Of a stretch of DNA of 64,000 nucleotides, positions 5,050 through 54,465 are shown piece after piece. Position numbers and translations under genes: made by a program. This DNA comes from a virus. Position 1 is the first letter of the stretch, and every line of letters starts with the position of its first letter. Location: positions 32,109-96,108 of IMG/VR virus record IMGVR_UViG_3300044833_000182. The stretch is one strand, 5' to 3'. The notes under the pieces are model-generated. The model saw only the letters and a program-made list of their open reading frames with translations, ran no database searches and was not told the origin of the DNA.

Positions 5050-5238
5050 ATGAGCATTAACGAGGCTGTGGAATCTCTGAGGCAGAAACTTGGAGAACCC
5101 GACGTGTTCATCGTCCGCCATGACGGCACGACGATAACGGTCGATGTGAACTTCGTCTACCGGGTCGAGGAAGTGAAAGCACTTGGCGACAAGTGGCAGG
5201 ATTTCCCCCTGCAAATCGGTAGGCGAAGTTGTTGGTGA
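5050..5238 (+). CDS. Hypothetical small protein
   Basis: A 62-residue protein (MSINEAVESLRQKLGEP) with a beta-rich centre (DVFIVRHDGTTITVDV). A GGAG site lies 6 bases upstream of the ATG. Nothing recognisable; coding potential rests on the ribosome site and spacing in the gene train. Confidence 0.5.
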   Translation: MSINEAVESLRQKLGEPDVFIVRHDGTTITVDVNFVYRVEEVKALGDKWQDFPLQIGRRSCW

Positions 5239-5299
5239 GAACACAGTGCGGCGCGTCCGCCCCCGGCGGCGTGTGGCCGGGGAGTAAGGAGTCCAAGCT

Positions 5300-5818
5300 A
5301 TCACCGAACTTCACGCCGACAACCTGAGCAACCGCCTGCGGGAATGCTCCTTCTCGTTCGATCGGGCAATGGCTTCCGGAAACTGGCCAGCCGCCATGCG
5401 CCTGTGGCTTGATCTCCTCGCCGCTTACAGTACGGTCATTCGCGAGGCGCGGTCGGCCAGCGTCGAGAATGACGCCCTGTCCGCGGAACTGAAGGTCTAC
5501 CGCCCTACCCGCACCGGCCGGCCAGCAGCGCCATTCCTCGAACGGCACATCTACGTCTTCACGGCGCGATCTCCGTGGGTGTGCGCGGCGGTGGAGTTGC
5601 GTCAGACAATTCAGATACCACCTATCTTTGGAGGCGGATATTATCAGGAGCATTACGTTCCAGAGAAAAAGACGGTGTGCGGGAAAACAACGTCCTACCC
5701 GGTGTCGGAGCGGTTTACGTCGGGCGGGTGGCCGCGCCTGCATGAGTTGTGCCCCGAATGCACGACGGCGCTCGTCAAGGCGGGAGCATTCCCCGTCGAA
5801 CCTATCACCGGTAGTTGA
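5300..5818 (+). CDS. Hypothetical zinc-binding protein, possible ATC start
   Basis: A well-formed AAGGAG (5286-5291) lies 8 bases before an ATC codon at 5300, with no ATG nearby; the next in-frame ATG is 5369, 69 bases later. The intervening codons (ITELHADNLSNRLREC) look coding, so initiation at ATC, or an ATG mutated to ATC, is likely. The 172-residue product has a helical N-terminal half and a C-terminal VCGK...LCPEC cysteine pair set that could bind zinc. Function unknown. Confidence 0.55.
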   Translation: MTELHADNLSNRLRECSFSFDRAMASGNWPAAMRLWLDLLAAYSTVIREARSASVENDALSAELKVYRPTRTGRPAAPFLERHIYVFTARSPWVCAAVELRQTIQIPPIFGGGYYQEHYVPEKKTVCGKTTSYPVSERFTSGGWPRLHELCPECTTALVKAGAFPVEPITGS

Positions 5819-7523: not shown

Positions 7524-7841
7524 ATGCTCACCCGCTCCCTCCGCACGCCGTACCCCCTGCCCACCGACGCGCCACCGCGCCGGCGCATCACGGAGGTTGA
7601 GGCCGCCGTCATGGTGTCGGCCGTGGGCGGCCTGGCGGACCTGGTGGCCGTGCGGAAGACGCTGGCGATGTTGCTCAACTGGGACCGCGAGCAGCAGGAC
7701 CGCGAGATCGAGGCGGCGCGGCGCAGCGGCCGGGTCACGGGGACGGCGCGCGAGGGACGCAACGGTGTGACGGCCGAGCAGCGGGCGACGGAGACGGCGG
7801 ACGGGTGCGGGTATCTGAGCATCCGCGAGGAGGGGGCATGA
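7524..7841 (+). CDS. Hypothetical protein ahead of the methyltransferase
   Basis: A 105-residue basic, Arg-rich protein. Its stop overlaps the methyltransferase start (ATGA at 7838), so the two are translationally coupled. Could be a partner of the enzyme; nothing in the sequence proves this. Confidence 0.55.
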   Translation: MLTRSLRTPYPLPTDAPPRRRITEVEAAVMVSAVGGLADLVAVRKTLAMLLNWDREQQDREIEAARRSGRVTGTAREGRNGVTAEQRATETADGCGYLSIREEGA

Positions 7842-9073
7842 TCGCAACCGCAAAGGACGTGCTGGAGGGACGGGCGGCGTGGGCGTGTGACCCGGCCGAC
7901 AACCTCGTATGGCTGGCCAGCCTTCCTGCGAGCTGCTGTTCGCTTTCGGTCACATCCCCGCCATACGAAGGTCAGAGACTTTACGGAGCCGTCAAGTTCA
8001 AGCTCGTGGGTCAGGCGTGGGTGGACTGGATGATTCCGCGCGTCGTCGAGATGTGCCGGGTCGTCAACGGTCTGGTGTGTATCAACATGAGCGGTTGCGT
8101 CGAGGATCGGATGTATCACCCCGTCGTCGAGTGGTTGGTTGCCGACCTGACGCGGAATCATGGTCTGGTGTGCGGCCCCGCCCCCTACGTCTTTTTCCGC
8201 TACGGTATCCCCGGCTCGGGAGGGTCGGGAAAAATCGACCGCTACCACCGGCGGGATTGGGAACCGGTGTACGCCTTTGCCCGTCTGGAGAACCTGCCGC
8301 TGAAGTGGACGGACGCGACGGCGATGGGGCATCCGCCGAAGTGGGCGCCGGGTGGGGAGATGAGCAATCGGCTGAAGAACGGCCAGCGCGTCGGCAAGTT
8401 CGGTGCGGGCGGAAGCAGCAACAGCAAGGGAGGTATGGGCCGTAAGAAGAACGGCGAAATGGAACCGACGCGCAACTCTTCCCTGGCGGAAACTGTGATC
8501 GTTGGCGGCGAGACTCCCGGTCTGTTCGGCCCTGTCGAGGAACCGCCAGCCGATCCCTACGGCCACGACCGCGCGACTTCGGGCGGCAAGAGAGCGAACG
8601 GCGAGCGGAAACCGCCAACGAAGCACGTCACCCGTCGCCGTCACGGCGACGGGGAGCGCGACGACGGCCAGTATGAACCGCCCGTTTTGGCGAACCCCGG
8701 GAATGTGATCAAGGCGCTGTACAACGCCGAAGAAGTCCGCCAACTCTTTGACGACCTCGTGACGCAGAAGATCGAGCCTGGCGACGTGGTCCGTTGTCTC
8801 GTCGGCGGCGGTCTGATGGGGCATCCGTTGTGCCACCGCAATGAAGCCCCGTTTCCAGAAAGCCTCGTGGAGTTCTTCATCCGTTCCTACGCCGCTCCCG
8901 GCAGCATCGTCCTTGACGCCTTCTCCGGGAGTGGTACGACGGGCGCCGTCGCGGTGCGGGAGGGGCGGCGGTTCATCGGCGCGGACGTGCGGCCCGATCA
9001 GATCGAGGTTGCCCGGCAGCGGATTAGTGGCGAGACGCCGTCTCTCTTCGCCGCGCAGGAGCCCCCGCCCTGA
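7838..9073 (+). CDS. DNA methyltransferase, SPPY (beta) class
   Basis: A 411-residue protein; ATG 7838 overlaps the previous stop. TSPPY at residues 39-43 is motif IV and DAFSGSGTTG near residue 365 is motif I, giving the IV-then-I order of beta-class amino-methyltransferases. SPPY is more usual for N4-cytosine enzymes, DPPY for N6-adenine, so N4-methylcytosine is the best guess. A low-complexity Gly/Ser/Arg insert occupies about residues 185-290. No restriction endonuclease is adjacent: probably an orphan protecting phage DNA. Confidence 0.85.
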   Translation: MIATAKDVLEGRAAWACDPADNLVWLASLPASCCSLSVTSPPYEGQRLYGAVKFKLVGQAWVDWMIPRVVEMCRVVNGLVCINMSGCVEDRMYHPVVEWLVADLTRNHGLVCGPAPYVFFRYGIPGSGGSGKIDRYHRRDWEPVYAFARLENLPLKWTDATAMGHPPKWAPGGEMSNRLKNGQRVGKFGAGGSSNSKGGMGRKKNGEMEPTRNSSLAETVIVGGETPGLFGPVEEPPADPYGHDRATSGGKRANGERKPPTKHVTRRRHGDGERDDGQYEPPVLANPGNVIKALYNAEEVRQLFDDLVTQKIEPGDVVRCLVGGGLMGHPLCHRNEAPFPESLVEFFIRSYAAPGSIVLDAFSGSGTTGAVAVREGRRFIGADVRPDQIEVARQRISGETPSLFAAQEPPP

Positions 9074-19682: not shown

Positions 19683-19939
19683 AAGCATGTGACCGCTGCC
19701 TGGCAGCAAATGCCTTCAAGACATCCATCCTGTTCGGCAAACACGACGGATCACGGAAGAGCGGCGCGCGCCGGATTCTGAGCGTGAACTGTGAGTTGTG
19801 CGACCAGTGTATCACCGATTTGCTTCACGAGTTCGGCCGGTTGAAGGCGGCCTTCCTCAAGGCCGGCATCAGCCCGGACGGCCCAGCGAAAAACATGAAA
19901 GAACCCATTTCGCCCGCAACAATGGAGACCGCATCATGA
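19679..19939 (+). CDS. Zinc-binding small protein
   Basis: An 86-residue protein from GTG 19679 with CDRC (residue 4) and CELCDQC (about residue 37), a likely zinc knuckle. Stop overlaps the SSB-like gene (ATGA). Confidence 0.55.
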   Translation: MKACDRCLAANAFKTSILFGKHDGSRKSGARRILSVNCELCDQCITDLLHEFGRLKAAFLKAGISPDGPAKNMKEPISPATMETAS

Positions 19940-20670
19940 GCGTTTTCAAGCGTCCCACGGGCAAGACCGGCAGCGGCGGCGACTTCGAGTTGCCCAGCGA
20001 AGAACCCCAACCCGCCGTCCTCATCGGTATCATCGACATCGGCACGCAGACGAGCCCGAAGTACGGCAAGAGCCGTCAGGGCGTGTTCATCTGGGAGTTG
20101 ACCGGCGAGGAGAGGAAGAAGGACAACACCCCTTTCATCCTGGCGCACAAGTTCACGTTGAGCATGAACGAGAAAAGCAACCTGTACAAGTTCGTCAAGG
20201 CGTGGCGGAAGAATGTCACGGACGGCGAGGAGTACGACGTGGCCGGACTCCTCGGGATGAAGGCCGTGCTCAACATCGAGCTGAAGGGCGGGCAGGGCGA
20301 GAAGGGGGACCGGACCTACCTGGAAATTCTGGGGGCGAACAAGCCGGCCAAGGGCCAGACGGTGAACGACCCGGAGAACGACCCTCTCCTCTGGGAGATC
20401 GAGGGCGGGAGTGAGTTGCCCGAGCAGAAGTGGATTCCCAACCTCTACGGCAAGCCGATCCAGGAGATGATTCGCGAGTCCGACGAGTGGCGCGCCCGCG
20501 AGGCGCAGCGCGCCGGCGCCGAGAAGACGAAGGCTGTGGAGAAGGAAGCCGACGCCGCGTTCAGCAGGGCCGCCCCGGCGCCTGAACCTGAGCCGGAGGA
20601 AGAGCCGCCCGTGCGCGCCGGCAAGCGGCAGACGACAGCCGCGGCTGTTGAAGACGAGATCCCGTACTGA
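19936..20670 (+). CDS. SSB-like phage replication/recombination protein
   Basis: A 244-residue protein; ATG 19936 overlaps the previous stop. The N-terminal two thirds (PAVLIGIIDIGTQ..., GVFIWELTGEE, FTLSMNEKSNLYKFVKAW, LYGKPIQEMI) match a family seen beside phage recombination genes and are compatible with an OB fold. A disordered Glu/Pro/Ala linker then ends in EDEIPY, close to the acidic DDDIPF tip by which bacterial SSB recruits partners. It likely coats single-stranded DNA for the primase-helicase two genes down. Confidence 0.6.
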   Translation: MSVFKRPTGKTGSGGDFELPSEEPQPAVLIGIIDIGTQTSPKYGKSRQGVFIWELTGEERKKDNTPFILAHKFTLSMNEKSNLYKFVKAWRKNVTDGEEYDVAGLLGMKAVLNIELKGGQGEKGDRTYLEILGANKPAKGQTVNDPENDPLLWEIEGGSELPEQKWIPNLYGKPIQEMIRESDEWRAREAQRAGAEKTKAVEKEADAAFSRAAPAPEPEPEEEPPVRAGKRQTTAAAVEDEIPY

Positions 20671-21007: not shown

Positions 21008-21236
21008 GAACGTGTGCTCCCACGTCCGCAAGGCGTTCTTCCGCCAGCAGATGGCGGACGGCCGATTTCAGGTGCGCGAGGCCTGCCTCGATTGCTGGGA
21101 GAACCCGCGCGGGAGTGGAGTCTGGGTGAGCCGGAGCGAGTTGATCGTCCCGCTGGAAGACCTGCCCTTGTATCCGGACGCGCAAGAACGGGTCATCCCT
21201 GGCCAGCCCCGGCAAGGCGATCTTTTCGGGGGCTAA
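21000..21236 (+). CDS. Small zinc-finger-like protein
   Basis: A 78-residue protein (MGKNVCSHVRKAFFRQ) with CSH and CLDC residues for a possible zinc site, ending in RQGDLFGG, a QGDLF-like tail resembling sliding-clamp-binding motifs. Overlaps its neighbours by a few bases on both sides. Confidence 0.55.
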   Translation: MGKNVCSHVRKAFFRQQMADGRFQVREACLDCWENPRGSGVWVSRSELIVPLEDLPLYPDAQERVIPGQPRQGDLFGG

Positions 21237-23434
21237 TGATGGCGAGCATCTTCACCGTTCCCGTGGAAGCAGCAAGCAACACCTCTACAGCGGACATCGA
21301 CGCCGCGGAGATTCGCCGCGCCATGACCCTTTTCGGGGCTCACGAGAAACTGGTGGAGATCCGCGCTGTCTTCGGCGAGCGTCGCAAGGCGAGAGGGCGA
21401 TTCCATCCAGGCACAGACCTTGACGCTTTCGTAGAGACGGCGCGGATGTTTTCGGGCGAGGGAGCGACCAGCATCTATTTCACCATCAATCCTGTACCAA
21501 CGGAGCCAGCCAAACTCACCACCGACAATGACGTTTTGCATCGACAGCTACTGTTCATTGACGTGGACGCTCTCACGCCCGACGCACACAGCAACAGCAG
21601 CGAGCCGGAGCACGAGGCGGCGCGAGAAATGGCGCTTGCCGTCCGCGAAGCACTTGCAACGGAAGGCTGGCCGACGCCGATTCTCGCCGACAGCGGCAAC
21701 GGCTGGCATCTCTATTACTGGATCGACCTGCCCGCTGACGAGCCCACCCGGGAACTTATCTCCGCTTTCCTGAAGCGGCTCAAGACGAAGTTTGACGGCG
21801 GCGGCAAGATCGACCCGGCCGTCTCCAACGCCGGGCGAATCAGCAAACTCCCCGGAACATGGGCGCGTAAAGGTCTGGACAGTCCAGACCGTCCCCACCG
21901 ACAGGCGCGCCTGCTCTGGGTTCCGGAGGAAAAAGAGCTTGTTTCGCCAGAACAGATTGGAGCGTTTCTCGCAGCAACTACCGAAAAGACCCACAAGGCC
22001 AACGGGACAGTGCCGCCCTTCTCGGCGTTGAAGCCGCGAGTGAACGCCAGCGGCAGCGATTCCGCCTACGCCCGCAAAGCGCTCGCGGACGAATGCGCCC
22101 GCATGGCGATGACTTCCAGCGGCGGCTTGAACACCCAGCTTTTTAAGTCCGGCGCCGCGTGCGGGAACTTCGTCCCGCACCTTCTTTCCGAGGCTGAGGT
22201 TTTCGATTGTCTTCTAGCGGCCGCGCATACGGCGGGATGCGACAACCCCGCCAAGGATGAGGACACCCTCCGGCGGGGCATCCACCAGGGCATGGAGACG
22301 CCCCGGTATGCACCCAAGCCAGCGCCCGTCAGTGCGCCGCCTTCCGCGACGGAAGCCAACGGCGTTCTGGAGCGGGTCACAATCACGGCCATTGAAATAA
22401 CACCGCGAAAGGTTGAATTCCTCTGGCCGGGCCGGATTCCCGCCAACAAATTGACTACCTTCGCCGGAGTTGGGGGACTGGGAAAAACTTTTTCACTCTG
22501 CGACATAGCCGCCCGCTTGAGTACCGGCGCTCCCTGGCCCGACGACCCGGACAGCGCTGCGCCCAAGGGGCGGTCGCTCATTATCAGCGGCGAGGACGAC
22601 GCCGACGACACGCTTGTCCCCCGTCTGATCGGCATGGGGGCCGACCTTAACCGCGTGTCCTTCCTGACCATCAAGGCCCTTGACCATTTCACCCTCCAGC
22701 AGTTGCCCTTGCTGGAGCGCGCCTTGGAAGAGATGCGCGGCGAATGCCGATTCCTCGCCATCGACCCGCCCACGGCCTACCTCGGAGGGATCGACGATCA
22801 CAAAAACGCCGAACTCCGGCAACTGCTGACGCCCCTGAAGAGTTTCGCGCACAAGCACAACGTCGCCATCGTTTTCAACACGCACATCACGAAATCCGGA
22901 GGCGTCAAGGTAGAGGCGATGATGCGCGTGATGGGTTCCGTTGCCTGGGTCAACGCCGTCCGCGCGGCACACCTGTTCGCCCGCGACCCCGATGATAAGG
23001 ACCGCCGGCTCTTCCTCTGCATGAAGATGAACGTGGCCAAGGAGAAGAGGGGCCTCGCCTATCGGCTCGTGGGCGAGCCGGGCGAGGACGCAGGGCGCCT
23101 GGAATGGATGGGTGAAGTGGACACGTCGGCGGACGACGCCATCAACGCTGGCGGCAAGCAGTCACGCGGGGTTGTCGCTTCCCGGTGGTTAATCGAGCGG
23201 TTCCGCGAAAACCTCGAATGGCGGTCAGACGACCTGATCGAGGCCGGTAGGCAGAACGGCGTCAGCCGCAACGCCCTCTTCGAGGCGAAGGATCGCCTTT
23301 GCCTGCCCAAGGCAAGGAAGACCACCCACACCAACGGAGACACCTGCTGGGTCTGGTGGGTTCCGGCGGACTGGCCTCATTTCCAGGCGTCCGTTAAACC
23401 GGAAGCCGCTGGGCCCGATGAAACGCCGTTCTGA
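21236..23434 (+). CDS. Primase-helicase (AEP primase + RecA-like ATPase + wHTH)
   Basis: A 732-residue replication protein. LFIDVD (residues 107-111) gives the metal-binding DxD of an archaeo-eukaryotic-type primase, GNGWHLYYW (154-162) and RISKLPGT (201-208) complete it. GVGGLGKT (411-418) is the Walker A and FLAIDPP (D510) the Walker B of a RepA/AAA_25-type RecA-fold helicase. Residues about 650-710 (DLIEAGRQNGVSRNALFEAKDRL, in parts) form a winged helix matching the C-terminus of the protein at 23728. Start TAATG overlaps the previous stop; ATG 21239 is equally possible. Confidence 0.85.
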   Translation: MMASIFTVPVEAASNTSTADIDAAEIRRAMTLFGAHEKLVEIRAVFGERRKARGRFHPGTDLDAFVETARMFSGEGATSIYFTINPVPTEPAKLTTDNDVLHRQLLFIDVDALTPDAHSNSSEPEHEAAREMALAVREALATEGWPTPILADSGNGWHLYYWIDLPADEPTRELISAFLKRLKTKFDGGGKIDPAVSNAGRISKLPGTWARKGLDSPDRPHRQARLLWVPEEKELVSPEQIGAFLAATTEKTHKANGTVPPFSALKPRVNASGSDSAYARKALADECARMAMTSSGGLNTQLFKSGAACGNFVPHLLSEAEVFDCLLAAAHTAGCDNPAKDEDTLRRGIHQGMETPRYAPKPAPVSAPPSATEANGVLERVTITAIEITPRKVEFLWPGRIPANKLTTFAGVGGLGKTFSLCDIAARLSTGAPWPDDPDSAAPKGRSLIISGEDDADDTLVPRLIGMGADLNRVSFLTIKALDHFTLQQLPLLERALEEMRGECRFLAIDPPTAYLGGIDDHKNAELRQLLTPLKSFAHKHNVAIVFNTHITKSGGVKVEAMMRVMGSVAWVNAVRAAHLFARDPDDKDRRLFLCMKMNVAKEKRGLAYRLVGEPGEDAGRLEWMGEVDTSADDAINAGGKQSRGVVASRWLIERFRENLEWRSDDLIEAGRQNGVSRNALFEAKDRLCLPKARKTTHTNGDTCWVWWVPADWPHFQASVKPEAAGPDETPF

Positions 23435-23606
23435 GGTCAAGTGTCCCGGTTTCTCTCCCCAAGTGGGGCCGGGACGATTGGGACGATTGCAACACTTGAG
23501 GTTAAGTCTATATGCGACAACATGTTGGGTCTGTCCCATTTACCACTGTCCTCGAATGGAGAGCGGGACACTTGAAAAGTGCCGGGACACTTGAGCGCTT
23601 TTTCAA

Positions 23607-23654
23607 GTGTTTCAATCGTCCCGGTTTAAATTTCCACCGGGACGATTGAAACAC
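23607..23654. repeat. 19-bp perfect inverted repeat with AT-rich centre
   Basis: Left arm GTGTTTCAATCGTCCCGGT (23607-23625), 10-base centre TTAAATTTCC, right arm its exact complement (23636-23654). It is the strongest palindrome in the iteron region and has a melting-prone centre, as an origin or strong operator would. Confidence 0.75.
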
Positions 23655-23677
23655 ACCTGTTTAGCTGTGAAACAGGT
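23655..23677. repeat. 8-bp hairpin between iterons
   Basis: ACCTGTTT (23655-23662), 7-base loop, AAACAGGT (23670-23677). Lies between two iteron copies; could be a structural part of the origin. Confidence 0.5.
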
Positions 23678-23727
23678 CAAGTGTTGCAATCGTTTCAATC
23701 GTCCCGAAAACCCTCTAGGAGGATTCC

Positions 23728-24105
23728 ATGAAACAGATCATTTTGACCCTTCCCGAGAACGTCGAGCTTCTCCTGAACGAGGCCGCCACTCGTCACTTGA
23801 TGAGCCTGGAAGGCTACGCTTCCCACGTCCTGACCCGGGCGCTTCAGCGGGGCAGTCGCCATCAGGGACAGACCCCTTACCGCCGCAAGAACGCCGCCGC
23901 GTTTCTCCACAGACTCGCAGCCGAAAAGACCCTCTGGGTTGCCACGGACTTGTGGACTCGCGCCCGGGAAGACGGCGTCAGCCGACAGGCCATCTTCGAG
24001 GCGAAGGAGGATTCGCTGATCGAGATCCGACGCAGAAAGATGGAAGAGTCCGTCTGCTGGATCTGGGACCTGAGCCAGCTTGTCCAGAGCAACGATCACT
24101 CCTAA
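23728..24105 (+). CDS. RHH + winged-helix replication-associated regulator
   Basis: A 125-residue protein; AGGAGG precedes the ATG. Residues 1-40 (MKQIILTLPENVELLLNEAA) look like a ribbon-helix-helix strand and helices. Residues 62-118 repeat the winged helix of the primase-helicase: DLWTRAREDGVSRQAIFEAKE then VCWIWDL, against DLIEAGRQNGVSRNALFEAKD and CWVWWVP. Directly follows the iterons. Likely binds the same sites and controls initiation or expression. Confidence 0.65.
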   Translation: MKQIILTLPENVELLLNEAATRHLMSLEGYASHVLTRALQRGSRHQGQTPYRRKNAAAFLHRLAAEKTLWVATDLWTRAREDGVSRQAIFEAKEDSLIEIRRRKMEESVCWIWDLSQLVQSNDHS

Positions 24106-27520: not shown

Positions 27521-28068
27521 GCGCAAACGTCAACAACCCGACTCATCGAAAGAGCAAACAGCGCCTTGCCGTGGAAGCAGCAATCCGCACCAATCGCAGC
27601 TTGACACACAAGGCTCTGGCGAAACGGTTCGGCGTCTCCCCGCAGAGGATATCCCAGATCAACCTGGCGATGCCTCCCGCTGAACGCTTGTTCGGAAAGA
27701 GATGGGAGCCGACAGAGGCGCAGCGTAACCGAGCCGACGCTATCGCCGCTGCTCTGCGAGAACGCTGTGACCGTTCCGATACGGAGATAGCCAGGCTGGC
27801 TGGTTGCGCCTGCTCCACTGCGGGAAGGCACAGGAAGCGTCTTGGGTATCCCCGGTACTTCGCCCCAAACAGGAACCGAGGAGTCAAGGGTCAGCGCCGC
27901 CTTGCTATCGAAGCAGCGCTTCTCGAAAAGCCGATGAGTTACGGCCGTATCAGGGAGATCGCTGAGGATTTGGGCGCGTCGTACGAGTACGTTTCTTGGT
28001 TGTGGTTCCATCTGAAGCCGGCCGATGCGCCCGATCTGCGCAAGGTGAAAAGGAGGGGGACGTCATGA
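27517..28068 (+). CDS. HTH protein, first of a split pair
   Basis: A 183-residue protein from GTG 27517 with several HTH units (LTHKALAKRFGVSPQRISQI, DTEIARLAGCACSTAGRH, YGRIREIAEDLGASYEYVSW). Its C-terminal HTH and LKPADAPDLRK end match the protein at 29308 (IKPAGAVDLRR). The TnpB element has been inserted between these two genes, altering the last codons here (RRGTS instead of a stop after RRGT). Confidence 0.6.
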   Translation: MSANVNNPTHRKSKQRLAVEAAIRTNRSLTHKALAKRFGVSPQRISQINLAMPPAERLFGKRWEPTEAQRNRADAIAAALRERCDRSDTEIARLAGCACSTAGRHRKRLGYPRYFAPNRNRGVKGQRRLAIEAALLEKPMSYGRIREIAEDLGASYEYVSWLWFHLKPADAPDLRKVKRRGTS

Positions 28069-29214
28069 CCTCACGGCTTGCACCGGAGGCTTGCAGGCAG
28101 TCTTGGCCGGATACATCGGCGGCAACGGCGACCCCTGCAATAGGGCGCATGACGACGCCCCTTTATCTCTAATGTTTCGAGCAGCGTTTTCGTCCGCAGG
28201 CGATTCATGACCACACGCACGGCACACAAACTGATCCCGACTTCTCCGGTTGGCCTTCTCACAGTGGCCGCATTGGGAGCAAGTTCGCGACGTGTTCCGT
28301 GGATCGATGAAGACCACGGGAACGCCAGCGCGAGCCGCTTTGTATGTCAGGAATCCCCGAAGCTGATGAAACGCCCACCCCTTGAGACGGTTGAGTTGAT
28401 CAGGCCCGCGAGCGGTTGTCCGGCTGCCGATTCCCTGGAGATCCTCCAGAGCGATCACGCTGCCGGTGTCTTTGGCCTTCTCGACGATGCACTTAGTGAT
28501 TCGATGGTTCTCGTTTGCCCTGAAGCGAGCCTCCTTCTTGCGGATCTTTCTGAGATGACGCCGGGCGCTCTTGCTACCGCACCTGTTCAGGTTGCGCCGA
28601 TGCTTCCCGTAGCGCTTACGGACTTCTTCCACCTTCGCCCCGGAGAAGACTTCTCCATCGCTGTCCACGGCAAGGTTTACCACGCCAAGGTCAACGCCGA
28701 TTACATCGGAAACGGTGATGGACTCGGGCGCTTCGTCCTTGATCTGGACGTGAAGGAAGTATCCGCCGTCTGGGCGCTTGACGAGCGTGGCGCTGGTGGG
28801 GTATTGGTCGCGAAGAGCGTCCCGCTGGAAGTCGCCGACCGAGGTAGCAAATCTTTCGCGGCCTTGCAGGAGTGTCAGGCCGAAAGTCCAATCATTTTCA
28901 TGGAAGCGAAAGATGCGAACGTCATAGTCGATGCTGGTCGGATTAAACATCGAGTCGCACCTATTAGGAACCTTGAGCGCCGTACAGGCGCGGGCGATGG
29001 CGCGAATGGTCAGGTTGGCGGACAGGCCGAATTCGGCCCGCACAGTGTGGTAACAGGCTTCCTGAACCTCGATCTTGTTTGTGCTACCGATGGCGCGGCA
29101 AACGTTCGCGATACGGTTGCAAGCAGCGGCGAACGCTTTGAGTGTGGCGTCAATCTCCAACGCCTGTTCGGCTGTGGGATCAAGCTTACAGCAGATGGTA
29201 CGCACAAGTTCCAT
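28063..29214 (-). CDS. tnpB: TnpB, RNA-guided nuclease of IS200/IS605 type
   Basis: A 383-residue protein. The RuvC residues are all present: D175 in GVDLG, E257 in ALEDLQG and D341 in ADENAARNI; the zinc finger has C312, C315, C331 and C334. Full length for the family, no internal stop, so a catalytically intact omega-RNA-guided nuclease is predicted. The guide RNA is expected to overlap the 3' end of the gene near 28063-28200. It can be mobilised only by a TnpA from elsewhere. Confidence 0.85.
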   Translation of the reverse strand: MELVRTICCKLDPTAEQALEIDATLKAFAAACNRIANVCRAIGSTNKIEVQEACYHTVRAEFGLSANLTIRAIARACTALKVPNRCDSMFNPTSIDYDVRIFRFHENDWTFGLTLLQGRERFATSVGDFQRDALRDQYPTSATLVKRPDGGYFLHVQIKDEAPESITVSDVIGVDLGVVNLAVDSDGEVFSGAKVEEVRKRYGKHRRNLNRCGSKSARRHLRKIRKKEARFRANENHRITKCIVEKAKDTGSVIALEDLQGIGSRTTARGPDQLNRLKGWAFHQLRGFLTYKAARAGVPVVFIDPRNTSRTCSQCGHCEKANRRSRDQFVCRACGHESPADENAARNIRDKGASSCALLQGSPLPPMYPAKTACKPPVQAVRS

Positions 29215-30460: not shown

Positions 30461-31204
30461 ATGACCACCACGACCACCGCATCTCGCCCCCTCCCCTGGC
30501 TCTCCGCCCTGTGCGACGAGGAGCGCTCCGGATCACTGTACCGCGAGCCGCACCGCCTGCCCGACGGCTCGCTCGTCGCCACGGACGGCCGCGTGTTGTT
30601 CCGCGTGACCGGACTGGCCGCCGACTACCCGCCGTCGGAGGGAGACCGGCTGGCCTCTGTGCAGGCCATCCTCGCCGCGCCGGCCTCGCCGCTGGGCGTG
30701 ATCGACGGCGCGGTGTTCCGGGAGTTTGTCGATCCCGCGTGCAGCGCGTGCAACGACATGGGCGTTACGGAGTGCAAGGAGTGCGACGGAAACGGCGTGA
30801 TTGAATGCGAGACGTGCGGCCACGAGGCCGACTGCATCGAGTGTCACGGCGATGGTCCCCGCGACGGCTGCTCCGTCTGCGGGGCCAAGCCGCCGCCGTA
30901 CGAACAGCGGCATCACCAGTGCGAGGCGGGCGGGCGGTTCTTCGATCGGCTGCTGCTGGCCAAGCTGCCCCGGGAATGTACGGGCGTCTTCCGCGTGGGC
31001 GAGGCGGCGCTGCCGGGCGGGGAGAAGTGGGTTCTCCGGCTGGCGGGCGAGAGCGTCATCGAGGGCGCGGCGTGCGCGTGGTCGATGATCGTGGTGGCGA
31101 TGGACCGGAAGGCGGATGGAGAGGTTCCGGCGCTGCCGATGCAGGGCGGCGAACCCCCGCCGTCCGGCGAGGCGGCGGGTGAGGGAGAGGAGGCGACGAC
31201 GTGA
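30461..31204 (+). CDS. Protein with DnaJ-type zinc-finger insert
   Basis: A 247-residue protein. Residues 91-145 (CSACNDMG, CKECDGNG, CETCGHEA, CIECHGDG) are four CxxCxGxG-like repeats, a DnaJ-type zinc centre. It is flanked by beta-rich segments (DGSLVATDGRVLFRV and GEKWVLRLAGES) reminiscent of sliding-clamp-like phage proteins, but that is tentative. Stop overlaps the methyltransferase GTG. Confidence 0.6.
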   Translation: MTTTTTASRPLPWLSALCDEERSGSLYREPHRLPDGSLVATDGRVLFRVTGLAADYPPSEGDRLASVQAILAAPASPLGVIDGAVFREFVDPACSACNDMGVTECKECDGNGVIECETCGHEADCIECHGDGPRDGCSVCGAKPPPYEQRHHQCEAGGRFFDRLLLAKLPRECTGVFRVGEAALPGGEKWVLRLAGESVIEGAACAWSMIVVAMDRKADGEVPALPMQGGEPPPSGEAAGEGEEATT

Positions 31205-32676
31205 AGGACGCGACGGCGGAGGATGTGATCGCCGGACGGGAGCCGCACGCGGTTCTTCTCGGGGACTGCTTGCAAGTGCTGCCAACGCTGCCGGACGGAT
31301 GCGCCGATGCGATCATTTGCGATCCACCTTATGGGCTGGATTTCATGGGTCGTGCGTGGGATCACGGCGTCCCGGGGATACCGTTCTGGGAAGCGATCCT
31401 CCGTGTCTGCAAGCCCGGTGCGCATCTGCTGGCGTTCGGCGGGACGCGAACCTTCCACCGCCTGACGTGCGCCGTCGAGGATGCCGGATGGGAGATAAGA
31501 GATACGCTTATGTGGTTATATGGATCTGGCTATCCGAAATCGCATGACGTGAGCAAGGCTATTGACAAGGCGGCAGGCAGAGTAAGTCATTCGGTCGTGA
31601 CATTGAAGCGCCGTCTCGCCGAACTGTTCGACGCCAGCGGCAAGCAGCGGAAGCAGATCGACCATGAATGCGGCTTTCGCGCCTGCAATTATCTCACATT
31701 GCCGGGAGAGGGGAAGCGGCCGGACCCGTGGGTCAACGTGCTGCCGTCTCAGGAGAAGTGGCAGACGATCAAGCGGGTGCTGGGTTGCAATGCTGACATC
31801 GCAGAAGAACTCGACGCGATCTACGCCGAGGCCGAGCGGGAAGTCATCGCGAAGGGGTTCCGAGTCCGCCTGTCGAGCACCGTCCAGTTTTGCGGCACGA
31901 GCGATGGCGAGTACGACATTACCGCCCCAGCGACCGCTGCCGCGAAGCAGTGGGAAGGCTGGGGGACCGCTCTTAAACCCGCGTGGGAGCCGATCATCGT
32001 TGCTCGCAAGCCTCTGGAGGGCACGGTCGCGCAGAACGTTCTGAAGCACGGGACAGGGGCGCTGAATATCGGGGCGTGCCGTGTCGGAACAGAAAGCACT
32101 ATCCGCAACCAGAACGAAGGGCCGACGTGGAGCGGGAAGTTTCAGGGCGGCAAACGGCTTAACGGGAGCGACGCAGGCCGCTGGCCCGCTAATGTCATTC
32201 TTTCTGACGATACCGAAGTCCTGGAGATGTTCCCGGAACGAAAGGTCTGCGCTCACGGGCCTGGAGTGAAAGCAAAAGGAATGTTTGGCGTGACAGCCGG
32301 TGCTGTGGCAGGCTATGACGACTCCGGCAGCGCCGCCCGCTTTTTCTATGTGGCCAAGGCGGACAAGACAGATAGAGGACACGGTAACACTCACAATACC
32401 GTCAAGCCGACCGCCCTGATGACCTGGCTTTGCCGCCTTGCGTGCCCCGCTGGCGGACTCGTTTTAGACCCCTTCGCCGGGTCAGGTTCAACAGGCGTCG
32501 CGTGCCGAATGGAGGGACGCCGCTTCATCGGGATCGAGGAGTCGGCGGAATATGTCGAAATCGCCCGCCGCCGTCTCGCCGCCTGTAACCCCGTCGCTGA
32601 CCTCGCGGACAGAACCGCCGCCCGCGAGCCCGCCGCGCAACCGGACTTGTTCGCGGCGCTGGAGGATACGCTATGA
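31201..32676 (+). CDS. DNA methyltransferase, DPPY (beta) class
   Basis: A 491-residue protein. DPPYGL at residues 41-46 is motif IV and DPFAGSGSTG near residue 421 motif I, order IV-I (beta class, usually N6-adenine). A long middle segment (about 110-240) is an inserted specificity or extra domain. NTVKPTALMTWLCRLA precedes motif I, as in this class. No partner nuclease beside it; the second orphan methyltransferase of the element. Confidence 0.85.
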   Translation: MKDATAEDVIAGREPHAVLLGDCLQVLPTLPDGCADAIICDPPYGLDFMGRAWDHGVPGIPFWEAILRVCKPGAHLLAFGGTRTFHRLTCAVEDAGWEIRDTLMWLYGSGYPKSHDVSKAIDKAAGRVSHSVVTLKRRLAELFDASGKQRKQIDHECGFRACNYLTLPGEGKRPDPWVNVLPSQEKWQTIKRVLGCNADIAEELDAIYAEAEREVIAKGFRVRLSSTVQFCGTSDGEYDITAPATAAAKQWEGWGTALKPAWEPIIVARKPLEGTVAQNVLKHGTGALNIGACRVGTESTIRNQNEGPTWSGKFQGGKRLNGSDAGRWPANVILSDDTEVLEMFPERKVCAHGPGVKAKGMFGVTAGAVAGYDDSGSAARFFYVAKADKTDRGHGNTHNTVKPTALMTWLCRLACPAGGLVLDPFAGSGSTGVACRMEGRRFIGIEESAEYVEIARRRLAACNPVADLADRTAAREPAAQPDLFAALEDTL

Positions 32677-53262: not shown

Positions 53263-54465
53263 ATGGTCATGCACCAGCGCTGCTATCGATTCCGTATGCA
53301 ACCCAACCGGAAGCAAGAACAGTCTCTTGCTCGTCTGGCAGGTGCGCGTCGATGGGTATGGAACTGGGCGCTTGCTCGGCGGAAGATGTACTTTGCCGAA
53401 CATGGCAAGGGTATTTCAGCGGCGCAGCTTTCCCGAGAATTGACGGCGCTGAAGGATCAGCCAGAAACGGCGTGGTTGCGCGAAGTCCACGCGCAGGCGC
53501 TGCAGCAGGTTTTGCGCGACTTGGACCGGGCGTTCGTCAACTTCTTCGAGCGCCGCGCCGGTTTTCCGCGATTCAAGAGCCGCAAGCGATCTATCCCGTC
53601 TTTCCGCATTCCGCAACACGTCAAGGTTGCGGACGGCAAGGTGTATGTTCCGAAGATCGGCCTCGTGCGAATTCGCCAATCACAGGCGGTCGAAGGCGAG
53701 AGCAAAAGTGCCACCTTCAAGCGGGACGCCTGCGGGAACTGGTACGTTACGCTGGTTGTTGCCTTTACCATGCCGGACGTTGCGTTGCCGCCGCCCGATC
53801 CGGAGAAGGTTGTCGGCATGGACGCTGGGCTGAAGGACTTCATCGTTCTGTCCAACGAGGAGCGCGTTCCGGCCCCGCAGTTTTACCGCAAAGCGCAGAA
53901 GAAACTACGTCGCGCCAACAAGGCATTTTCTCGACGGAAGCGAGGGAGCAAGCGGCGCGACAAGGCGCGACGACGGATTGCCCGCATTCAACAGCAGACG
54001 GCGAACAAGCGGCAGGACTTTCTGCACAAACTGAGTACGGACATTGTCAAACGGTTCGATGGCGTCTGCATCGAGGATCTGAACGTCAAGGGCCTTGCGA
54101 GAACAAAGCTGGCCAAATCGTTCACCGATGCCGCACACGGGGAGTTCAGACGGATGCTGGAGTACAAGTCGCTCTGGCATCGCAAGCATCTTGTTGTCGT
54201 GGGGCGATCCTTCCCCTCGACGAAGACTTGCAGTGCGTGCGGCGCGGTCAACGACAACCTCACGTTGAAGGATCGGCAGTGGATCTGTCCGGCGTGCGGG
54301 GCTATTCTGGATCGCGACCTCAACGCCTCTTGCAACATCAGAACGGAAGGACTGAGAATCTTGGCCGTGGGGCACACGGACAATAACGCTCGGGGAGTCT
54401 TTATAAGACCTTGCGCAAGCGGGGCAGTGGACGATGAACCGAGAATCCCGATGCCGCAAGGCTAG
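53263..54465 (+). CDS. tnpB: TnpB, RNA-guided nuclease of IS200/IS605 type
   Basis: A 400-residue protein (ATG 53263 or 53269). RuvC residues: D187 in GMDAGLK, E271 in CIEDLNV, D352 in DRDLNAS; zinc finger CSAC (323, 326) and CPAC (342, 345). All present, no stops. Its sequence differs greatly from the copy at 28063, so it is a separate acquisition. The guide RNA should overlap the 3' end near 54350-54500. No TnpA in the window. Confidence 0.85.
   Translation: MVMHQRCYRFRMQPNRKQEQSLARLAGARRWVWNWALARRKMYFAEHGKGISAAQLSRELTALKDQPETAWLREVHAQALQQVLRDLDRAFVNFFERRAGFPRFKSRKRSIPSFRIPQHVKVADGKVYVPKIGLVRIRQSQAVEGESKSATFKRDACGNWYVTLVVAFTMPDVALPPPDPEKVVGMDAGLKDFIVLSNEERVPAPQFYRKAQKKLRRANKAFSRRKRGSKRRDKARRRIARIQQQTANKRQDFLHKLSTDIVKRFDGVCIEDLNVKGLARTKLAKSFTDAAHGEFRRMLEYKSLWHRKHLVVVGRSFPSTKTCSACGAVNDNLTLKDRQWICPACGAILDRDLNASCNIRTEGLRILAVGHTDNNARGVFIRPCASGAVDDEPRIPMPQG

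Follow-up and report, generated by a model that had tools for sequence, protein, structure and literature searches.

Why does a dense array of short repeats lie between a primase-helicase gene and a small gene whose product appears to carry the same winged helix (wHTH), and what would such a pair of proteins do there? The window analysed here, a stretch of 64,000 nucleotides, comprises bases 32,109-96,108 of a 96,108-bp virus record that has an identical 126 bp at both ends, as in complete circularly assembled genomes. The record is a tailed phage, in which portal and major head proteins were found. The reading that we favour, and to which we give a probability of roughly 0.6, is that the array (23438-23706) is the phage replication origin, that the C-terminal wHTH of the helicase reads its iterons, and that the small protein of 125 residues is an accessory that competes for them and so limits initiation. 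Upstream of the primase-helicase gene in the window, and directly so in several relatives, the phage encodes a probable replication initiation protein, a member of the NGO0469 family (19936-20670, plus strand, start codon inferred), which matches the NCBIfam equivalog NF046043 with E 3.4e-28 and 98.4 bits, above the cut-off of 75. Its homologues adjoin the helicase gene at loci L096, L135, L100, L098 and L092 and follow the array in L101/L011. Elsewhere in the window the phage encodes a TnpB-like protein with OrfB_IS605 and Cas12f1-like TNB domains (28063-29214, minus strand), a transposase (53263-54465; phrog_506, E 4e-122) and two DNA methyltransferases that both match phrog_67 (7805-9073 and 31201-32676).

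The array stands out sharply from the rest of the record. Counted on both strands, exact CAA(GT/TC)GT sites number 28 in the 96,108 bp, with 12 crowded into about 270 bp at 23438-23702 and 16 in all the remainder (0.05 expected per 280 bp; Poisson P 2e-25). The most natural division of the repeats is into tandem units of 9 bp with CCGG at the end, as in CAAGTGTTG-CAATCGTTT-CAATCGTCC-CG, with CAAGTGTCC or CAATCGTCC as the iteron consensus. Three tandem units form a left outer run on the minus strand (23472-23498) and three more a right outer run on the plus strand (23678-23704). Between these lie the element AGACTT, about 10 nt from the left run (23504-23509, minus strand), a lone iteron of reversed orientation and degenerate sequence, CCACTGTCC, 51 bp inward from the left run (23543-23551, plus strand) and placed like the single plus-strand iteron of the relatives, and a 19-bp perfect inverted repeat made of inverted iterons (23607-23654), whose arms at 23607-23625 and 23636-23654 enclose the AT-rich centre TTAAATTTCC. 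A single reversed iteron at 23640-23648 is separated by 36 bp from the right run, and the hairpin ACCTGTTT-agctgtg-AAACAGGT occupies the right linker (23655-23677). The inverted repeat is the longest short-spaced perfect inverted repeat of the whole record, and the strand folding of the region (z -10.1) arises from the inverted iterons. The AT-richest 200-bp segments of the record fall in the array region, and AT between the outer runs reaches 53% compared with 36% for the window. The repeats, the inverted repeat with its AT-rich centre and the hairpin had all been described in a first-pass annotation made from the letters alone, and the site count and a scan of the record bear that description out. 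The GC-skew analysis that it had proposed as a check gave no support, as the skew over the record has no origin-like inflection at the array; an Rfam search returned no match.

The gene to the left (21236-23434, plus strand) encodes the proposed initiator, a 732-residue primase-helicase. Pfam recognises AAA_25 only (E 3e-25), and the remaining architecture comes from an AlphaFold2 model built on ten family members. The first part of the model matches the RepB' primase (3h20, E 1.7e-8) and the CRISPR-associated Prim-Pol (CAPP), and the middle part matches the RecA-type ring helicases RSF1010 RepA (1nlf, 2.9e-4), Twinkle and T7 gp4. By this model the N-terminal domain is of AEP type and is followed by a RecA/RepA-type helicase core. 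The C-terminal wHTH (23177-23374, plus strand), the proposed iteron reader, is kept in all ten family members, and a PDB sequence search with it found weak HTH matches only.

The small gene to the right (23728-24105, plus strand) comes from the list of open reading frames, has a ribosome-binding site, AGGAGG, at 23717, and is high in GC at third codon positions (0.78). Its product carries a wHTH (23893-24072, plus strand) that is 43% identical to that of the helicase over 47 residues (BLASTP E 3e-8), a kinship also seen in the alignment and the tree. Searching the whole record with the small protein retrieves itself and the helicase C-terminus only. The shared winged helix on which the first-pass annotation had built its argument is thus confirmed by BLASTP; the family wHTH profile included both domains when built and is not an independent test of their kinship. 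The recognition helices are of the same type (GVSRNALFEAK in the helicase, GVSRQAIFEAK in the small protein), and it is plausible from their sequences that the two proteins read the same iterons. AlphaFold2 places the small protein at a mean pLDDT of 84.5, with the wHTH above 90 and the N-terminus, a long helix, at 60-80. The label RHH for that N-terminus is a weak one, given a Pfam FitA-like_RHH score below the cut-off (E 0.041) and no PDB match, and a fold search of the protein gave no significant match beyond a weak PadR/MarR-type wHTH resemblance. No homologue of the small protein was found in viral contigs, phages or the sampled Planctomycetota and Chloroflexota genomes, nor any short reading frame carrying a copy of the wHTH in 392 Planctomycetota and 400 Chloroflexota genomes.

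Neither the small protein nor the helicase, used as a single query, found anything in viral contigs; alignment-based scans yielded nine relatives of the primase-helicase at 30-45% identity, eight on viral contigs and one, L092, in a Chloroflexi genome assembly. In nine of the ten family members, the start of an array of 8-9-bp iterons and the helicase stop codon are about 55 bp apart at most. For the eight relatives among these, the start ranges from 52 bp ahead of the stop codon to 54 bp beyond it, and the best 7-mer count in each of their clusters exceeds that of all 200 shuffles. The array of L098 lies 4.8 kb from the helicase gene, some 0.7 kb beyond an integrase gene, and retains the core CAACTGT. 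The family consensus is near CAASTGTCC, and by locus it reads CAACTGTCC in L092 and L135, CAACTGTAC or -TCC in L098, CTACTGTCC in L011, CAAGTGTGG in L096, CACTGTATC in L099, CAAGATTCC-like in L102, CACTCTCCC in L100 and CTTTCGGA in L012. Searching 2.9 million viral contigs for the iteron alone led to a further member of the helicase family with an array downstream (profile E 1.4e-234). This contig, L135 (also listed as L121), was first picked up by that scan, which gives independent support to the link between iterons and helicase. Iteron clusters occur at the helicase stops of 15 of 71 non-redundant AAA_25 loci compared with 10 of 521 other ORF ends (P 5e-9). Outside the primase-helicase family a comparable cluster is present at only 6 of 61 AAA_25 loci, so that an array beside the helicase is not the rule for all AAA_25 helicases. 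Within the family, EAK-type recognition helices pair with TGT-core iterons in seven of seven cases and non-EAK helices in none of three, a pairing found by inspection and uncorrected for ancestry. Because the arrays are kept at the same place in the relatives of the helicase, the iteron origin proposed in the first-pass annotation is well supported, as a prediction from sequence, for 23438-23706, and more strongly than by anything in the window itself.

Several further features of these loci deserve mention. In four relatives the iterons overlap the end of the helicase gene, where they code for the C-terminal tail of the protein, with products such as GNVGNVGN and GTVGTVGTV (L102:4905-4970, L135:9105-9145, L011:6180-6222 and L012:8050-8106). 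L102 also has a second short-repeat cluster upstream of the helicase gene, with seven copies of GGCAGAC (2146-2257). CAASTGTCC-type iterons are found near unrelated initiator genes as well, densely in L113, L115 and L118 and more sparsely in L104 and L112, where the initiators are other AAA_25 proteins or of Prim-Pol/DUF3987, D5_N, DUF927 or RepB_primase type; the scan that revealed them selected for this very pattern and carries no general claim.

The arrays share not only a position but a geometry. All ten span 188-237 bp, with one tandem run on the minus strand at the left and another on the plus strand at the right. About 39 bp inward from each run lies one iteron of the opposite orientation, plus-strand on the left side and minus-strand on the right; the typical strand order is - - - + - - + + - + + +. 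The right linker, from the last minus-strand iteron to the right run, measures 36-43 bp in ten of ten arrays, and the left linker 38-42 bp in eight, 31 bp in L012 and 51 bp in the window. An opposite-strand mirror partner exists for 94 of 123 sites over all arrays, compared with a mean of 61.6 and a maximum of 77 in 1000 orientation shuffles, a comparison in which the placing of array boundaries at the outer runs favours symmetry in the observed data. The linker lengths are free of that dependence, and for the window array alone the mirror-partner test gives P 0.12. The site lists derive from the locus-specific consensus, with a few degenerate sites admitted by position (23543 in the window, 4979 in L102). 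Departures from the order are an extra plus-strand site outside the left run in three arrays and an extra minus-strand site on the right in L135. The AGACTT element of the window belongs to a pattern, RACTT, that was picked after inspection of the linkers and occurs 8-12 nt from the outer run in 10 of 19 of them (mean 1.3 and maximum 6 in 5000 shuffles); it is possibly a second contact site.

This arrangement suggests how such an origin might work. The C-terminal wHTH of each helicase subunit would bind one iteron, and two helicase assemblies would be placed on the inverted outer runs, facing opposite ways. Between those runs the AT-rich DNA would open, and the attached primase domain would start synthesis, leading to bidirectional replication. 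We infer binding, opening and bidirectionality by analogy with SaPI Rep and Cch2 (PMC7581432), pRN1 ORF904 (PMC4234260) and P4 alpha. Two inverted iteron runs with linkers of about 39 bp offer a concrete and testable model of how an origin-reading ring helicase could be seated twice to replicate in both directions.

The part played by the small protein is a separate matter. It is missing from seven of the eight relatives that have an array beside the helicase gene, L102 being the exception, which argues for an accessory rather than a general loader and for an array that is independent of it. As a DNA-binding twin of the initiator without the enzyme parts, its simplest reading is competition for the iterons, which by analogy with pi30.5 and RepR' is also the most likely one. 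It would bind the same iterons, block the helicase and thereby limit initiation of its own phage, of related co-resident replicons, or of both, and binding to the array, which immediately precedes its gene, may serve autorepression as well. The evidence that points to this role is the wHTH homology, the direct vicinity of gene and array, and the presence of another wHTH protein at the corresponding position in L102, the locus to which comparative support is limited.

The L102 protein (5170-5667) joins a MUG113/T5orf172 domain of the GIY-YIG clan (MUG113 E 2e-8) to a helicase-type wHTH, so that a GIY-YIG-type part takes the place of the RHH-like one. Its gene directly follows the array and precedes another helicase gene, and its wHTH is 50% identical to that of its own helicase and 55% to that of L012. 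In L135 the array is followed directly by a homologue of the helicase gene that comes after the small gene in L102, and from this gene order the small gene looks to have been gained in L102 or lost in L135. The wHTH tree divides so that each small protein shares a side with the helicase encoded beside it (support 90/100); most of the remaining branches have weak support, and that of the window protein is long. That the two small proteins acquired the wHTH independently was considered and is not provable from this tree, which does not reject a single clade (p 0.46).

The ICP1 protein Odn, an origin-directed nuclease in which a RepA_N origin-binding domain is joined to T5orf172, has the same plan as the L102 protein and cuts the origin of a satellite (PMC8263062, PMC10448857). 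An anti-rival role is therefore a serious alternative for both small proteins: the window protein could be a weapon or exclusion factor against related phages or satellites that share its iterons, rather than a self-regulator. The sporadic occurrence of the gene and its inserted look, judged by gene order after the array in L135 and L102, agree with such a role. We nevertheless consider it unlikely for the window protein, which has no nuclease domain and is encoded beside the origin of its own phage, whose type of recognition helix it shares; no target replicon was identified. MUG113 domains also occur in ordinary phage replication proteins such as p19 of Myxococcus phage Mx8 (L152), where the domain lies inside an annotated replication initiation protein, and the L102 protein might thus be a replication factor instead. 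We tentatively suggest a wider scheme, at distinctly less than even odds, in which small proteins capture a version of the initiator's wHTH welded to varied effectors, RHH-like here and GIY-YIG-type in L102, to yield origin-directed repressors and nucleases whose target is a conserved iteron origin with dyad symmetry, either in self-control or against rival replicons.

Doubtful, and more so than a role against rivals, is a positive role, in which the small protein is a helicase loader or an architectural protein needed to open this origin. Its gene does lie in the replication module, its wHTH is shared with the helicase and RHH proteins can bridge arrays; yet of eight relatives whose origin is laid out in the same way, seven manage without it. 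Very improbable is that the array has no part in replication and is a mere operator for autorepression by the small RHH-wHTH protein. Tandem repeats of 7-10 bp upstream of the coding gene are a frequent target of RHH proteins, and 22 bp separate the array from the start codon of the small gene, but the seven relatives have an array at the same place with no such protein, that of L098 lies 4.8 kb from the helicase, and a consensus scan found no sigma-70-type promoter. As arrays exist without the small gene, we reject an operator of that gene only. A partition site bound by the RHH protein is barely credible, for although RHH centromere-binding proteins with short repeats exist, the array is kept without the RHH protein and no ParA-like match occurred among the genes scanned, which cover part of the record.

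Competition at a replication origin remains our preferred reading, and it draws on principles with precedent. Helicases that recognise iterons immediately past the end of their own gene have been described. SaPI Rep and SCCmec Cch2 are initiator helicases with a C-terminal DNA-binding domain that reads short iterons in an origin directly downstream, and binding as two hexamers has been proposed (PMC7581432). The present family resembles them in that nine of ten members have a short iteron array right after the helicase gene, and in a C-terminal wHTH with predicted iteron binding, and differs in a RecA/RepA-like (AAA_25) core fused to an AEP primase. The first-pass annotation knew of no described system with this layout. 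This holds, as far as the open-access literature goes, for the dyad order with 39-bp linkers on this type of helicase and for the separate wHTH proteins, whereas the principle is known from SaPI Rep and Cch2 (PMC7581432), pRN1 (PMC4234260) and Odn (PMC8263062). For phages with AEP-RecA-wHTH primase-helicases we found no described origin in the open-access literature, an absence that is weak evidence, and the array therefore stands as a predicted origin with conserved geometry for that family.

Other initiators share parts of the design. Alpha of satellite phage P4 is a fused primase-helicase with an SF3 helicase and a C-terminal wHTH that binds short iterons (ori1/crr), and the small P4 protein Cnr limits copy number; to our knowledge Cnr does not share the wHTH of alpha. 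The window likewise has a fused primase-helicase with a C-terminal wHTH and a small extra protein beside it, but its core is Pfam AAA_25 with a RecA/RepA fold rather than SF3. The alpha primase is of TOPRIM type (PMC4234260), unlike the N-terminal domain in the window, which models as AEP (RepB' 3h20, E 1.7e-8). ORF904 of plasmid pRN1 and the proteins of BIP-1-like phages combine an AEP primase, a helicase and a C-terminal wHTH, and in pRN1 a palindromic stem-loop serves as the origin, lying no more than about 160 bp downstream (PMC4234260). The window helicase has the same AEP and wHTH domains, with a stem-loop formed from inverted iterons downstream of its gene; pRN1, unlike the window with its AAA_25 core, has an SF3 helicase and no iterons. 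The pRN1 replicon also has a copy-control protein, ORF56, which we take to be of RHH/CopG type; unlike the window small gene it is encoded upstream and carries no wHTH copy. RSF1010 RepA, RepB' and RepC supply a RecA-type hexameric helicase, an AEP primase fold and an iteron-binding protein (PMC4234260), as three separate polypeptides where the window has one fused protein.

For the small protein as an antagonist, precedents are R6K pi30.5 and pIGRK RepR', short proteins with the DNA-binding part of the initiator that counteract initiation (PMC6854812). These arise from an internal start of the initiator gene, whereas the window protein is the product of a separate gene and has a different N-terminus. 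Like ICP1 Odn it is a small phage protein carrying the initiator's origin-binding domain, to which L102 adds the same nuclease superfamily. The window protein differs from Odn in having an RHH-like part in place of a GIY-YIG clan (T5orf172/MUG113) domain and in being encoded beside the origin of its own phage, and both it and the L102 protein have a wHTH of another family instead of RepA_N. The small wHTH proteins suggest that the appropriation of an initiator's DNA-reading domain, as in ICP1 Odn, may extend to further phages, with a DNA-binding domain of unrelated type and with partners that are not nucleases.
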